Positions 55,375 to 60,656 of a stretch of 64,000 bases of DNA are shown here, one piece after another. Within the stretch, counting starts at the first letter, position 1; each line of letters opens with the position of its first letter. The position numbers were made by a program, and so were the translations under genes. The stretch is from positions 5,434,001 through 5,498,000 of the forward strand of contig NC_017249.1 in NCBI RefSeq assembly GCF_000284375.1. Reading direction: 5' to 3'. This stretch comes from Bradyrhizobium japonicum USDA 6. GTDB taxonomy: Bacteria; Pseudomonadota; Alphaproteobacteria; Rhizobiales; Xanthobacteraceae. A model generated the notes under the pieces. The model had not been told where the DNA came from. It did not search any database and saw only the letters and a list, made by a program, of their open reading frames with translations.

Positions 55375-55443
55375 GCCACGGGATGGCAAGCGCGGCGTGT
55401 GCATATTAGATTGAGCACACGTCTTTCGATCTGGAGCCTGCCG

Positions 55444-56022
55444 ATGACATCGCGTGAGGATTTTTCCCGGCTGCAATCCGCCATGAGCCAGACGGTCAAG
55501 GCGCATTGGAAGGCCTTCCTGTTCGAAGGCATCCTGCTTGCCGTACTCGGCGTCGCCGCGCTGATCCTGCCGCCGCTCGCGAGCCTTGCGATCACGATCT
55601 TTCTCGGCTGGATGTTCCTGGTCAGCGGCATCGGCGGACTGATCGTGACCTATTGGGCGCGCAACTCGCCGGGGTTCTGGTGGTCGCTGATCTCGGCCGC
55701 GCTGGCCGTGCTTGCCGGGATGCTCCTGCTGGCCCGGCCGATGCAGGCCGTGCTGACGCTGACCATCGTGCTCGGCGCCTACTTCCTCGCCGAGGGCGTC
55801 GCCACCATCATGTATGCGCTGGAGCACCGCCGCGATTTGAGCAGCCGGTGGACGTGGCTCCTGATCTCGGGCCTCGTCGACATCGCCATCGCGTTCATGG
55901 TGATCACGGGGCTGCCGAGCTCGGCGGAATGGGCGATCGGCATCCTCGTCGGTATCAATTTGCTGTTCGGCGGCGCCACCCTGATCGGCATGGCGCTGGC
56001 GGCACGCAACAGCAACAGTTGA
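55444..56022 (+). CDS. HdeD family (DUF308) membrane protein
   Basis: 192 residues from ATG 55444 (TGGAG upstream). Six hydrophobic segments in pairs, with FEGILLAVLGVAALILPPLASLAITIFLGWMFLVSGI and LLISGLVDIAIAFMVI repeating the DUF308 unit. E. coli HdeD is an acid-stress membrane protein; the mechanism is not known. Monocistronic, upstream of the DAHP synthase leader. Confidence 0.88.
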   Translation: MTSREDFSRLQSAMSQTVKAHWKAFLFEGILLAVLGVAALILPPLASLAITIFLGWMFLVSGIGGLIVTYWARNSPGFWWSLISAALAVLAGMLLLARPMQAVLTLTIVLGAYFLAEGVATIMYALEHRRDLSSRWTWLLISGLVDIAIAFMVITGLPSSAEWAIGILVGINLLFGGATLIGMALAARNSNS

Positions 56023-56089
56023 GGCGCCTCGTGGCCCCTCGCGCCGATTGGGGGTGACAACCCGGCAATCGCACGCTATATCAGCGGCC

Positions 56090-56170
56090 ATGATCACCCT
56101 CGTCACCAGCTATTTTTGGTATTTTAGCTACGACAGCTCGCTGGCGGCAGGAGGATCGCGCTCAATCTGA
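56090..56170 (+). CDS. Aromatic leader peptide of the DAHP synthase gene
   Basis: 26-residue frame MITLVTSYFWYFSYDSSLAA plus six residues, TGA at 56168. Six aromatic codons (Y, F, W, Y, F, Y) fall within seven positions at 56111-56131, just upstream of competing RNA hairpins. Leader peptides of this kind sense charged tRNA levels; here Tyr, Phe and Trp would all be read. It ends 81 bp before the DAHP synthase start. Confidence 0.75.
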   Translation: MITLVTSYFWYFSYDSSLAAGGSRSI

Positions 56171-56217
56171 ATATTGAAGCAAACGTCCGAACAAGCCGCC
56201 AGACCTGGCGGCTTTTT
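56141..56217 (+). promoter_or_regulatory. Transcription attenuator: antiterminator/terminator switch
   Basis: Terminator stem AAGCCGCCAG (56193-56202) with CTGGCGGCTT (56205-56214) and TTTTT. The same CTGGCGGC occurs at 56141-56148 and can pair with GCCGCCAG (56195-56202), which would prevent the terminator. That upstream copy can also pair with CACCAGC at 56105-56110 on (one mismatch), in the part covered by a ribosome stalled at the aromatic codons. This is the classical 1:2, 2:3, 3:4 arrangement. Confidence 0.75.
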
Positions 56218-56251
56218 ATTGCCGGCAGGTTCAAACAAGCAGGAGCCCGCC

Positions 56252-57337
56252 GTGCTGAGCACGACCGACGATCTTCGTATCCGCGAACTGAAAGAGCTGA
56301 GCACACCGGAAGAGGTGATGCGGGAAGTCCCGCGCACGCTCACCGCAACGCGTGTGGTGATGGCGGCGCGCAACGCCATTCATGCCATCCTCAACGGCCA
56401 GGACGACCGCCTGCTGGTCGTGGTCGGCCCCTGCTCGGTGCACGATCCCAAGGCCGCGCTCGAATATGCCGAGCGCCTCGCGAGCCTGCGCGAGGACCTT
56501 GCCGACCAGCTCGAGATCGTGATGCGGGTCTATTTCGAGAAGCCGCGCACCACCGTCGGCTGGAAGGGCCTGATCAACGATCCTGACCTGGACGGCAGCT
56601 TCGACATCAACAAGGGCCTGCGACTGGCGCGCAACGTGCTGTCCGCGGTGAACAATCTCGGCCTGCCGGCCGGCACCGAATTCCTCGACATGACGACGCC
56701 GCAATACATTGCGGATCTCGTGTCCTGGGCCGCGATCGGCGCGCGCACGACCGAGAGCCAGATCCATCGCGAGCTGGCCTCGGGGCTGTCCTGCCCGGTC
56801 GGGTTCAAGAACGGCACCGACGGCAATGTGCGCATCGCGGCGGACGCGGTGAAGTCGGCCTCGCATCCGCATCATTTCATGGCGGTGACCAAGCTCGGCC
56901 GCTCGGCGATCGCCTCGACCGCGGGCAACGAGGATTGCCACATCATCCTGCGCGGCGGCAGCAAGCCGAACTACGACGCGGCAAGCGTCGCGGCGGCCTG
57001 CAACGACCTGGCCAAATCCGGCGTCGCGCCGCTGGTGATGGTGGATGCGAGCCACGCCAATTCGAGCAAGAAGCCGGAAAACCAGCCGCTGGTCATGGCC
57101 GACATCGCCGGCCAGATCTCGGGCGGCGAGAACCGTATCATGGGCGTGATGATCGAGAGCAATCTCGTCGCCGGCCGCCAGGACGTGGTGCCGGGCAAGC
57201 CGCTGACCTACGGCCAGAGCATCACGGACGGATGCATCGACTGGGCGGCCACGGCAACCGCGCTCGAGCAGCTCGCTGACGCGGTCGAGATCCGGCGCAA
57301 CACGCAGCGCGCGGGGCTGCACGAGCGCTCGGCGTAA
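56252..57337 (+). CDS. 3-deoxy-7-phosphoheptulonate (DAHP) synthase, class I
   Basis: 361 residues from GTG 56252 (CAGGAG seven bases upstream), the usual class I AroF/G/H length; starts further upstream fall inside the terminator. LLVVVGPCSVHDPKAALEYAERL holds PEP- and metal-binding residues. YFEKPRTTVGWKGLINDP, SGLSCPVGFKNGTDGN, HIILRGG and VDASHANSSKKP (metal His) follow. It condenses PEP and erythrose-4-phosphate at the entry to the shikimate pathway. An attenuator with aromatic leader codons lies upstream. Which of the AroF/G/H feedback types it is cannot be read safely. Confidence 0.95.
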   Translation: MLSTTDDLRIRELKELSTPEEVMREVPRTLTATRVVMAARNAIHAILNGQDDRLLVVVGPCSVHDPKAALEYAERLASLREDLADQLEIVMRVYFEKPRTTVGWKGLINDPDLDGSFDINKGLRLARNVLSAVNNLGLPAGTEFLDMTTPQYIADLVSWAAIGARTTESQIHRELASGLSCPVGFKNGTDGNVRIAADAVKSASHPHHFMAVTKLGRSAIASTAGNEDCHIILRGGSKPNYDAASVAAACNDLAKSGVAPLVMVDASHANSSKKPENQPLVMADIAGQISGGENRIMGVMIESNLVAGRQDVVPGKPLTYGQSITDGCIDWAATATALEQLADAVEIRRNTQRAGLHERSA

Positions 57338-57771: not shown

Positions 57772-58866
57772 TCATGGCTCGGGCGGATAGAGATGAACGT
57801 CGCCGCAATAATCCACGATACGATAGCGCGTTTCCGTCTCCGCTTCACGTGCGTCAGCTGCGGTATTTTGCACCGCCAACACATAATTCGGCCCGACCGG
57901 CGATTTGCCGGCGCCCCCGGGAATGTCGATGACGTAGTCGGGCTGACACAGTCCTGACACCCGTCCGCGCAACTGCCGCATCAAATCCTGTCCCTCGGCC
58001 AACGTCGTTCGCAAATGCACGGTGCCCGGCGCGAGATCGCCGTGATGCAGATAGTAGGGCTTGATCCGGCATTCGACGAAAGCTCGCATCAAATCCGACA
58101 AAGCGGCAATGCTGTCGTTGACGCCGCGCAAAAGCACGGACTGGCTCACCATGGGAATCCCGGCATCGGCGAGTCGCGCAAAGGCCGCGCGCGCAGGCCC
58201 CGTCAACTCGCGCGCATGGTTGGCATGCACCGCGACCCAGGTGGTCGCGCCCTCGACCTTGAGCGCCGCGACCATCTCGTCGCTGATGCGCGACGGATCG
58301 GCTACCGGCACGCGGGTGTGAAGGCGGATGATCTTGACGTGATCGATTCCCGCAAGATCGGCCATGATCTCGCCCATCCGGCGCGGCGACAGCATCAAGG
58401 GGTCGCCGCCGGTCAGGATCACTTCCCAGATCTCGCTGTGCGAACGGATGTAATCGATCGCCGCGCGATAGGCGCCGTCCGAGAGCGCATTCTCCTTGCC
58501 GGGCCCGACCATTTCGCGGCGGAAGCAGAATCGGCAATAAACCGCGCAGACGTGAACGAGCTTGAACAGCACACGGTCGGGATAGCGATGCACGATGCCC
58601 GGCACCGGCGAGTGCGGGTGATCGCCGATCGGATCGGCGCTCTCGCCTGGCTGCATCTCCAGCTCCGCGACGGTCGGAACGAATTGCCGCGCGATCGGAT
58701 CGTCGGGGTCGGACGCGTCGATCAGTTCGACCAGCGCCGGCGTGATCGCCACCGCATAGCGCGCGGCGACACGTTCGAGCGCGGGCAGCGCTTCGGCCGG
58801 TGCAAGCTGCGCGGCCACAAGTTGGGCCGGCTCACGCAGGGTGCGTGCAAGGTTGGTCTTCGTCAT
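57772..58866 (-). CDS. epmB: EF-P (R)-beta-lysylation enzyme 2: lysine 2,3-aminomutase-like radical SAM protein
   Basis: 364 residues. The radical-SAM cluster motif CAVYCRFC (C107, C111, C114) is followed by FRREMVG; EVILTGGDPLMLSPRRM and YYLHHGDLAPGTVHLR (PLP region) are typical of KamA/EpmB. The short length and the adjacent epmA and efp genes favour EpmB, which makes (R)-beta-lysine for EF-P, over catabolic lysine 2,3-aminomutase. Its ATG overlaps the epmA stop (ATGA). Confidence 0.9.
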   Translation of the reverse strand: MTKTNLARTLREPAQLVAAQLAPAEALPALERVAARYAVAITPALVELIDASDPDDPIARQFVPTVAELEMQPGESADPIGDHPHSPVPGIVHRYPDRVLFKLVHVCAVYCRFCFRREMVGPGKENALSDGAYRAAIDYIRSHSEIWEVILTGGDPLMLSPRRMGEIMADLAGIDHVKIIRLHTRVPVADPSRISDEMVAALKVEGATTWVAVHANHARELTGPARAAFARLADAGIPMVSQSVLLRGVNDSIAALSDLMRAFVECRIKPYYLHHGDLAPGTVHLRTTLAEGQDLMRQLRGRVSGLCQPDYVIDIPGGAGKSPVGPNYVLAVQNTAADAREAETETRYRIVDYCGDVHLYPPEP

Positions 58867-59927
58867 GTCTCACTTAACGTTTCATTTGCAGGCGGTGTCC
58901 ACACCACCTGATCGATCCGCGCTGCGCCGCTCGCCAGCATCACCAGCCGGTCGAAGCCGAGCGCGACACCGCTCGCATCCGGCATTTCGGCGACCGCGGC
59001 CAGAAAATCCTCGTCCAGCGGATAGGCCTCGCCATAGCGGCGCTGCTTCTCTGCCATCGACTCCGTGAAGCGCTTGCGCTGTTCCTCGGCGTCGGTCAAC
59101 TCGCCAAAGCCGTTGGCGAGCTCGACGCCGCAGGCATAGACCTCGAACCGTTCGGCGACCCGCGGGTCATCGGCCTTCACGCGCGCCAACGCCGCCTCTG
59201 GAGATGGGTATTCGAACAGAATGGTCAAACGCCCCTGCCCCAGATGCGGCTCGACATGCTCGACCAGGACCTTGCTGAAGATGTCGGACCAGGTGTCGTC
59301 CTCCGCGACGCGGACCTTGCCGCCGGCCGCCTGCGCGAGCGCGGCACGGTTACCTTCGCCGTCCGAGATTGTCGACAGCAGGTCGATCCCTGCAAACCGC
59401 TCGAAGGCGCCAGCGACGGTCAGAAGCTCCGGTTCCGCGAAGGGATCGGCGGTCCGGCCACGGAAGGAGAACGACCCGATTCCCGTCGCCTGCGCGGCGC
59501 GGGCGATGACCACGACGGTGTCCGCCATGATGGCATCGTAGGGGGCGCGAGCCCGATACCATTCCAGCATGGTGAATTCGGGCAGATGCAGGTCGCCGCG
59601 CTCGCGATCACGGAACACCCGTGCGAATTCGAAAATCCGCTCCTCGCCCGCCGCCAGCAGCTTCTTGCAGGCGAATTCCGGCGAGGTCCGCAAGTACCGG
59701 CTGGCACGGCTGCCATCCGGCCGCATGATCTCGGTCCGGGGGGCGTGCAGATGGGTTTCGTTACCCGGGGAGACCTGAAGGACCGAGGTTTCGACCTCCA
59801 GGAACCCCTGCTCGGCGAAAAAGCCCCTGAGAGACCCGGTAACGGCCCCCCTGGCCTGAAGGAACGGCCGCCGGTCAAGGTGCCGCCCGGGCGACCAGAA
59901 CGGCGAAATCGGCTTGTCCCCAACCAT
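58863..59927 (-). CDS. epmA: EF-P lysine ligase (GenX/PoxA/YjeA)
   Basis: 354 residues from ATG 59927, a class II lysyl-tRNA-synthetase core without the anticodon-binding domain. Motif 2-like FARVFRDRERGDLHLPEFTMLEWYRA and motif 3 GVALGFDRLVML are clear. It attaches beta-lysine to Lys33 of EF-P. Divergent from efp by a 162-bp gap and overlapping epmB, so one locus holds target and both modifiers. The frame is open upstream on the same strand, but that part is antisense to efp. Confidence 0.93.
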   Translation of the reverse strand: MVGDKPISPFWSPGRHLDRRPFLQARGAVTGSLRGFFAEQGFLEVETSVLQVSPGNETHLHAPRTEIMRPDGSRASRYLRTSPEFACKKLLAAGEERIFEFARVFRDRERGDLHLPEFTMLEWYRARAPYDAIMADTVVVIARAAQATGIGSFSFRGRTADPFAEPELLTVAGAFERFAGIDLLSTISDGEGNRAALAQAAGGKVRVAEDDTWSDIFSKVLVEHVEPHLGQGRLTILFEYPSPEAALARVKADDPRVAERFEVYACGVELANGFGELTDAEEQRKRFTESMAEKQRRYGEAYPLDEDFLAAVAEMPDASGVALGFDRLVMLASGAARIDQVVWTPPANETLSET

Positions 59928-60089
59928 CAACCGACCGCTCCCCGGCCCAGCAAAGTGCTGGCATCCAACGGCAAAATCAGTATGTTGCGCCCCGAAACGG
60001 GCGCTGCGGTCCGATTTGAGACCCCGGGTCCCCCCGAGATTTGACCACGTCCTGGCCCGAGCCGGGCCAAGCAAGCAGGAAATATAGCT

Positions 60090-60656
60090 TTGAGAGTCAT
60101 CGCCAGTTCTATTCGCAAGGGCAACGTGATCGAGCAAGACGGCAAGCTTTATGTCGTCGTGAGCGCCGAGAACATCCATCCCGGCAAGGGCACCCCGGTC
60201 AGCCAGATCGAAATGCGCCGAATCTCGGACGGGGTAAAGATCTCCGAGCGCTACAAGACCACCGACCAGGTCGAAAAGGCCACGATCGAAGAGCGCAACT
60301 ACACCTTCCTGTATGAAGATGGCGACGGCTTCCACTTCATGAACCCCGAAACCTACGACCAGGTCCAGGTCCCCAAGGACGTTGTCGGCGATGCCGCCGC
60401 CTATCTCCAGCCAGAAATGATCGTCAAGTTGTCGACCCACGAGGTCAATGTGGTCTCGCTCGCGCTGCCGCAGCGCGTCACGCTGGAAGTGGTCGAGACG
60501 GAGCCGGTGACCAAGGGCCAGACCGCTTCGTCCTCCTACAAGCCCGCAGTGCTGTCCAACGGCATCCGCACCACCGTGCCGCCGCATATCTCGGTCGGCA
60601 CCCGCATCGTGGTGATGACCGAAGACGGCTCCTACTCCGAGCGCGCCAAGGACTAA
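60090..60656 (+). CDS. efp: Elongation factor P
   Basis: 188 residues from a TTG start at 60090 (CAGGAA upstream), which alone gives the family N-terminus [20 protein letters not shown]. Three KOW/OB beta domains; the modified residue is K33 in HPGKGTP. The C-terminal motif [21 protein letters not shown] is complete. EF-P relieves ribosome stalling at polyproline; the adjacent epmA/epmB indicate beta-lysylation. The rare TTG start may hold down its translation. Confidence 0.96.

Follow-up and report, generated by a model that had tools for sequence, protein, structure and literature searches.

The stretch of DNA analysed here, which we call the window, comprises 64 kb (G000:C1:5434001-5498000) of a single-contig 9.2 Mb genome and contains on its forward strand a class I (AroFGH) DAHP synthase gene with a GTG start (56252..57337). 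The gene matched NCBIfam TIGR00034 at 530 bits against a cut-off of 173, was the sole match to this family in the genome, and encodes a protein 97% identical to a Bradyrhizobium iriomotense protein; such named relatives of the enzyme assign the genome to Bradyrhizobium. The DAHP synthase reaction is the step at which carbon becomes committed to the shikimate pathway. A Shine-Dalgarno-like AGGAG on the same strand (56241..56245) was recognised from the sequence at the position of AGGAGCCC. Upstream lies an HdeD-like gene (55399-56022), so called on an NCBIfam score below the cut-off, and between the two genes stands a forward-strand leader ORF (56090..56170) of 26 codons (MITLVTSYFWYFSYDSSLAAGGSRSI), with ATG at 56090-56092 and TGA at 56168-56170. 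Its centre carries the control codons Tyr-Phe-Trp-Tyr-Phe-Ser-Tyr (TATTTTTGGTATTTTAGCTAC; 56111..56131, forward strand), and the predicted peptide is rich in the amino acids in whose synthesis the following gene (TIGR00034, aroFGH) acts. A 26-codon leader of this composition ahead of a class I DAHP synthase had been proposed in an initial annotation, and both the coordinates and the TIGR00034 match confirmed it. The frame stays open 5' to a TTG at 56048; the start was taken as the ATG at 56090 because that ATG is kept in relatives.

Among the 1085 short ORFs (8-60 aa) of the 64 kb window, the leader was the only one with at least five aromatic residues in eight. When the 450 nt upstream were dinucleotide-shuffled 2000 times, no shuffle reached the leader's six aromatics in eight and one reached five. 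The pattern TWYTWYTGGTWYTWY matched once in the 9.2 Mb genome, at the leader itself, and the reversed control pattern matched twice, so that the position of the pattern and not its rarity is telling. The 136-nt leader stretch was more stable than its dinucleotide shuffles (z -2.5), with 3 of 200 equally good.

A putative promoter on the forward strand consists of a -35-like box, GTGACAA (56054..56060), and a -10-like hexamer, TATATC (56077..56082), 7 nt before the ATG. A -10-like hexamer 6-8 nt 5' of the ATG, together with a TGACA-like -35, recurred in 98 of 111 distinct Bradyrhizobium sequences, and in the other Alphaproteobacteria the hexamer was likewise placed in 19 of 41, 18 of them with a -35. 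Shine-Dalgarno-like sequences preceded the leader ATG in 4/111 Bradyrhizobium and 0/41 other alphaproteobacterial sequences. The leader is thus probably itself leaderless, with transcription starting on or next to its ATG. Sinorhizobium rnTrpL is described as beginning at the trpL ATG (PMC7298713), and 192 start sites in B. japonicum as lying exactly at annotated start codons (PMC4842269). At Burkholderia- and Massilia-like loci a TATA-like box seen by eye lies farther 5', and the leaders there are therefore probably not leaderless.

Conservation of the reading frame and the competing helices

The class I DAHP synthase gene was present in 111 of 117 sampled Bradyrhizobium genomes. Together with seven further loci (L002-L007 and L149) these gave 118 upstream regions, some perhaps from the same species, and the leader was found in all 118, as 49 distinct peptides each containing Phe, Tyr, and Trp. 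In all 53 distinct 26-codon Bradyrhizobium ORFs, codon 9 encodes Phe or Tyr, codon 10 Trp, codon 11 Tyr, and codon 12 Phe; codons 8 and 14 vary, and the C-terminal part of the peptide is almost fixed within the genus. Phe at codons 9 and 12 (56114-56116 and 56123-56125) was written TTT in 90 of 91 cases among distinct Bradyrhizobium leaders, and four long ORFs nearby in the window use TTC 30 times and TTT five times. TTT may have been kept as a slow codon where control takes place, or because it avoids base pairing there.

Folding divided the forward-strand transcript into four regions. Region 1 (56092..56110) is the 5' arm of a protector helix, built from GAUC, CCU, GUC, and CCAGC segments, with ACCAGC at 56105-56110. 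Region 2 (56140..56157) is the protector 3' arm and includes CTGGCGGC (56141-56148), which is also the 5' arm of the antiterminator. Region 3 (56193..56204), identified from both folding and alignment, contains GCCGCCAG (56195-56202), which pairs with either region 2 or region 4, and region 4 (56205..56217) forms, with a run of five T (56213-56217), the 3' arm of an intrinsic terminator between the ORF and the gene. The two alternatives arise from a repeat, CTGGCGGC occurring at both 56141-56148 and 56205-56212, and folding recovered them as first described, along with the upstream pairing near 56105. The terminator stem consists of 9 bp (56193-56201 with 56206-56214) around a GACC loop, at -15.9 kcal/mol. 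The register originally assigned to it stands; the innermost pair, 56202/56205, does not, since with only two bases between them it cannot form, and the fold adds two outer A-U pairs.

By our criterion, 211 of 221 leaders have a terminator, and GGCGG, the core of the antiterminator, occurred in the leader ORF of 205 of these 211. In 195 the motif sits in one codon phase with changing flanking residues (LAAGG, PLAEEG, KAVE), and conservation of peptide and of RNA is therefore largely inseparable there (195/211). In ten copies the phase is different or mixed (e.g. LTGGA, RTGGL, VPGGR); these shifts would favour the RNA over the peptide as the conserved unit, but they are few.

In an alignment of 53 leaders, the five core antiterminator pairs were standard in 50-53, the pairs flanking them in 18, 36, and 27, and the six core terminator pairs in all 53. 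Three leaders from one clade (L062, L130, and L164) carry an antiterminator double change, A-U for G-C, which leaves a G.U in the terminator; this counts as a single event and favours the antiterminator at the terminator's expense. Across 118 representatives, protector pairing averaged 7.9 pairs in native sequences vs 5.4 in synonymous recodings, with at least four pairs in 77 and fewer in 41, the latter including most Oxalobacteraceae-type leaders and the L130 clade. In the window the protector formed in the full transcript and was not favoured in the truncated one. Both the leader frame and the competing stems are thus conserved in relatives, where their absence would have spoken against the initial annotation.

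Folding around a model ribosome and the proposed switch

A model ribosome was laid on the leader as a mask, and the full transcript was folded at equilibrium for each A-site codon. With no ribosome the window's terminator formed 9.3 pairs. With the A site at codons 3-8, 10, or 11, the antiterminator was predicted to prevail, at 5.8-7.1 pairs vs 1.5-3.0 for the terminator; at Phe9 the terminator had the edge (6.0 pairs vs 3.1 for the antiterminator), and from Phe12 onward the terminator formed. The effective codons in the equilibrium model are therefore Tyr8, Trp10, and Tyr11, and a stalled ribosome would expose the antiterminator at codons 8, 10, and 11. The expectation that the leader integrates the supply of Phe, Tyr, and Trp is accordingly only partly in line with the model, which favours the antiterminator for stalls at Tyr8, Trp10, and Tyr11 and not for those at Phe9 and Phe12, leaving Phe sensing unsupported by the window's equilibrium folding. 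When the window transcript was cut before region 4, stalling at each of codons 8-13 allowed the antiterminator (8.7 pairs), which also won when the ribosome was absent or had reached the stop codon; the protector must therefore form first in time.

Synonymous recoding of the window's leader usually destroyed the predicted switch, which scored 7.87 in the native sequence vs 0.84 +/- 2.22 in recodings; of 400 recodings, 14 were at or above the native switch and three had the full logic. Among the 118 representatives, the full transcript at equilibrium gave a switch above 0.5 in only 25, and most relatives must therefore rely on the order of folding. We judged equilibrium folding too blunt across relatives because attenuators act during RNA synthesis. 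In truncated transcripts, 110/118 formed at least five pairs between leader and region 3 when the ribosome was stalled, and 95/118 had at least two more such pairs with the ribosome stalled than with it past. Stalled pairing averaged 8.3 pairs in native and 6.8 in recoded sequences, a comparison whose Wilcoxon value is overstated because the 118 sequences are related; taken singly, it beat at least 90% of a sequence's own recodings in only 34/118.

Leader-peptide attenuation, as first proposed, is thus supported by conservation of the frame and stems, by the ribosome model of the window, and by loss of the switch on recoding, and we consider it very likely that the leader is a ribosome-mediated transcription attenuator ahead of the class I DAHP synthase gene. 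In the proposed mechanism, transcription would begin on or next to the leader ATG. As long as charged aromatic tRNAs are abundant, the ribosome would pass the control codons onto region 2, leaving region 3 to pair with region 4 and transcription to end near 56217. A shortage of charged aromatic tRNA would stall the ribosome at the control codons, where it covers region 1 (in the model this is clearest for Tyr8, Trp10, and Tyr11), and region 2, left free, would pair with region 3 and let the polymerase continue into the DAHP synthase gene. If the leader were not translated, region 1 would pair with region 2 and the terminator would form. Such a switch probably lets the DAHP synthase be made mainly when Phe, Tyr, and Trp are scarce, and the codon content suggests that all three may be sensed.

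Leaders outside Bradyrhizobium and the history of the gene

In a first scan of 80 DAHP synthase loci, in which a leader was scored as an ORF with at least four aromatic residues in eight, 66 loci were flagged, and 64 of the 80 were clear after two (L048 and L059) had been dropped; one locus counted as a miss (L037) has only 52 nt of upstream sequence. The leader-bearing loci include Mesorhizobium, Devosia, Methylosinus, Leisingera, Phenylobacterium, Massilia, Rugamonas, Janthinobacterium, Caballeronia, Paraburkholderia, Cupriavidus, Bordetella, Xanthomonas, Stenotrophomonas, Rhodanobacter, and Dyella. The ORF scan of these 80 loci found no aromatic leader at the sampled Pantoea, Photobacterium, Enterovibrio, Thauera, Azoarcus, Methylotenera, and Chitinimonas loci. 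Judged by the predicted ORFs, class I DAHP synthase genes of other Alphaproteobacteria, many Betaproteobacteria, and some Gammaproteobacteria have comparable leaders upstream. Four betaproteobacterial leaders (L020, L023, L024, and L027) contain Phe and Tyr and no Trp.

Wider samples were searched at three ranks. At the order level, 23 of 199 genomes had a class I match, that of G276 being too weak to be the gene, and all 16 loci outside the genus (L115-L130) had the leader. Searched with a covariance model built from the leader alignment, this sample yielded a hit of E 4e-16 or better at every class I DAHP synthase, 22 in all, and a further hit at 6e-10. At the class level, the gene was found in 7 of 288 other genomes (L142-L148) and the leader at five of the seven loci; of the two without a counted leader, L142 lies on a contig that is too short and L148 has a leader-like ORF with only Phe-Tyr. 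Inspected by eye, this degraded-looking leader is accompanied by a GCCGCC/GGCGGC terminator before the class I gene. At the phylum level the gene occurred in 172/299 genomes, and of 60 further loci fetched nine were flagged and eight appeared credible by their ORFs.

Of these eight, seven come from the f220 group, where seven genomes each have one DAHP synthase preceded by such an ORF. Six second copies in that group were examined, and five had no candidate leader; the sixth (L295) is preceded by a Trp-rich ORF that was judged spurious because of its far position. Of the seven f220 leaders only L296 had a strong terminator; for the other six it was weak (-6 to -8 kcal/mol) or none was found, and attenuation in f220 is therefore doubtful.

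The initial annotation placed control at the first step of the aromatic pathway. This holds for the class I enzyme and fails as a description of a sole gate: a class II DAHP synthase (PF01474) was present in 34 of 34 genomes tested, the window's genome included, where it lies at G000:C1:6148436-6149749 (L135). As a control, ten upstream regions of class II genes, that of L135 among them, were scanned and contained no aromatic leader (maximum four aromatics in eight), and therefore only one of the two isozymes would be governed in this way. Four Bradyrhizobium genomes at least 99% complete (G015, G032, G048, and G053) have the class II gene and no class I gene.

Outside Bradyrhizobium, few Alphaproteobacteria have the class I gene. 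A quick tree of 143 proteins, 113 of them with a leader, had long branches and some leader states set by hand; on it the leader state changed seven times, vs 27.6 times when states were shuffled. With a midpoint root, one side held 101 rows with a leader and three without. The Alphaproteobacteria and Xanthomonadales-like rows grouped together (64 rows, SH-aLRT 98), and every one of them except L148 has a leader. These patterns indicate that the leader has largely stayed with its gene across families, and the simplest, if tentative, reading would be joint transfer of gene and leader into the Alphaproteobacteria. Taken together, the gene and leader might form a portable cassette of Alpha-, Beta-, and Gammaproteobacteria whose rhizobial form is a leaderless ORF reading all three aromatic tRNAs, such that a shortage of any one would switch on an extra DAHP synthase isozyme beside the unswitched class II enzyme. 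We offer this fuller picture tentatively, as one that is rather less probable than not in its entirety.

Related systems and alternative readings

Attenuation of a DAHP synthase is itself known or predicted elsewhere. The Corynebacterium glutamicum aroR leader precedes aroF, a DAHP synthase gene subject to attenuation (Neshat et al. 2014, via PMC11802643 and PMC4046766), and resembles the present case in arrangement, placing a peptide with aromatic codons ahead of such a gene; it differs in belonging to an actinobacterium and in holding Phe-Tyr-Phe with no Trp named. It is described as responding to limitation of Phe and not of Tyr (PMC11802643). The uORFC-13-1 motif upstream of aroF in Acholeplasma, a predicted attenuator (PMC8632094), likewise combines a uORF and a terminator upstream of a DAHP synthase, but is described only from Acholeplasma and environmental sequences, and its U run encodes one or more Phe. 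For proteobacterial DAHP synthases, RNA control has been proposed through 5'-UTR predictions for Shewanella aroF and aroH and through the hypothesis of a Tyr-tRNA attenuator at E. coli aroF (Camakaris 1980; both via PMC2659441), known from descriptions that give no leader sequence. The rhizobial trpL-trpE(G) attenuator of Sinorhizobium meliloti shares a transcript described as beginning with the leader ATG, and differs in its 14-aa Trp leader and its terminal-branch gene (PMC7298713).

The pheM-pheST and pheL-pheA leaders (Rfam RF01859, Phe_leader) also combine an aromatic leader with a terminator; the window scored 21.7 bits against this model (E 0.25), below the cut-off of 55 bits. Between 55950 and 56350, Rfam 15 gave no Trp_leader, T-box, or riboswitch match up to E 5, and the near-misses (Phe_leader, BjrC1505, RNAI, and rdlD) were rejected as far below cut-off. 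At ten DAHP synthase loci of other families no Rfam family reached its gathering score, no Rfam 15 model did so for the DAHP-synthase leader family, and the leader peptides tried matched no NCBIfam or Pfam entry. In the mostly open-access literature covered, which may not include every earlier description, we found no account of such a leader at proteobacterial class I DAHP synthase genes apart from the Shewanella and E. coli predictions. Within those sources the proteobacterial leader family appears to be new. E. coli aroF and aroH are described as repressed by TyrR and TrpR (PMC11802643); many other Proteobacteria appear to control the class I copy via a leader that reads aminoacyl-tRNA supply.

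Several other explanations of the locus were weighed. The hairpin stands 3' of a gene ending at 56022 and might be that HdeD-like gene's ordinary terminator, joined by chance to an ORF and regulating nothing; yet the ORF lies between the gene and the terminator, was kept in 118/118 regions, also precedes DAHP synthases of other families, and was unique among the 1085 short ORFs, which makes coincidence extremely improbable. We find it just as hard to credit a metabolite-binding riboswitch or T-box in place of a translated leader: the 5' region of an amino acid gene, with a terminator in it, is where one might be sought, but Rfam gave no such match up to E 5, and it is a frame enriched in cognate codons that has been conserved. 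Somewhat easier to entertain, and still improbable, is action in trans, with the terminated leader RNA acting as an sRNA or a small leaderless mRNA, in the manner of S. meliloti rnTrpL/peTrpL, and attenuation as a by-product. The predicted start at the ATG would match the 5' end described for rnTrpL (PMC7298713), and the C-terminal part of the leader is almost fixed in Bradyrhizobium; that part, however, overlaps the RNA needed for the protector and the antiterminator, and the C-terminal peptide differs in other families.

Within attenuation itself, a narrower sensing deserves more weight. The leader might respond mainly to one or two amino acids, e.g. through Trp codon 10 and Tyr, with the remaining aromatic codons as passengers or as tuning of the stall site, and we regard this as a serious possibility that falls slightly short of an even call. 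Trp codon 10 is invariant in 53/53 while codons 8 and 14 vary, in the equilibrium model of the window a stall at Phe9 or Phe12 fails to favour the antiterminator, four betaproteobacterial leaders dispense with Trp, and aroR, as described, holds Phe-Tyr-Phe and answers Phe limitation and not that of Tyr (PMC11802643). Against this, codons 9, 11, and 12 are aromatic in 53/53, and the truncated transcript allows the antiterminator for stalls at every codon from 8 to 13 (8.7 pairs). Whichever amino acids it would read, the ribosome-mediated attenuator proposed here offers a test case for the integration of three amino acids by a single leader.

The leader search also points to further leaders. Eight covariance-model hits away from DAHP synthases were fetched. 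One (L347) is a pheM leader, confirmed by Rfam Phe_leader, with the synthetase recognised by eye; two weak matches (L351 and L352) are Trp leaders (NGWWWRSW) before a gene that by eye looks like trpE(G). Four of the eight (L348, L349, L350, and L353) had no aromatic leader, and the weak hits of the model are therefore mostly not leaders. The last match (L346:532-652, in G230) is a Tyr-rich leader before a tyrosyl-tRNA synthetase gene (TIGR00234).

A Tyr-rich ORF, of VYFYYVT or VYYYA type, was found 170-220 nt 5' of one tyrosyl-tRNA synthetase paralogue of a Hyphomicrobiales family at all 24 loci listed (L354-L377), and at 0/6 loci of the other paralogue (L378-L383). Sixteen of the 24 ORFs have four or five aromatics in eight, and eight have three (seven VYYYA and one FYYA). 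These ORFs may represent a tyrS attenuator in Alphaproteobacteria, of which a limited literature search found no account, and a terminator-like stretch was matched in part of the 24 loci.

On the reverse strand of the window, at 57772-60587 beyond the DAHP synthase gene, a KamA-type lysine-2,3-aminomutase-like gene (TIGR03822) lies beside an ORF whose end looks by eye like a synthetase of EpmA/GenX type, and the pair would resemble an EF-P lysylation arrangement.
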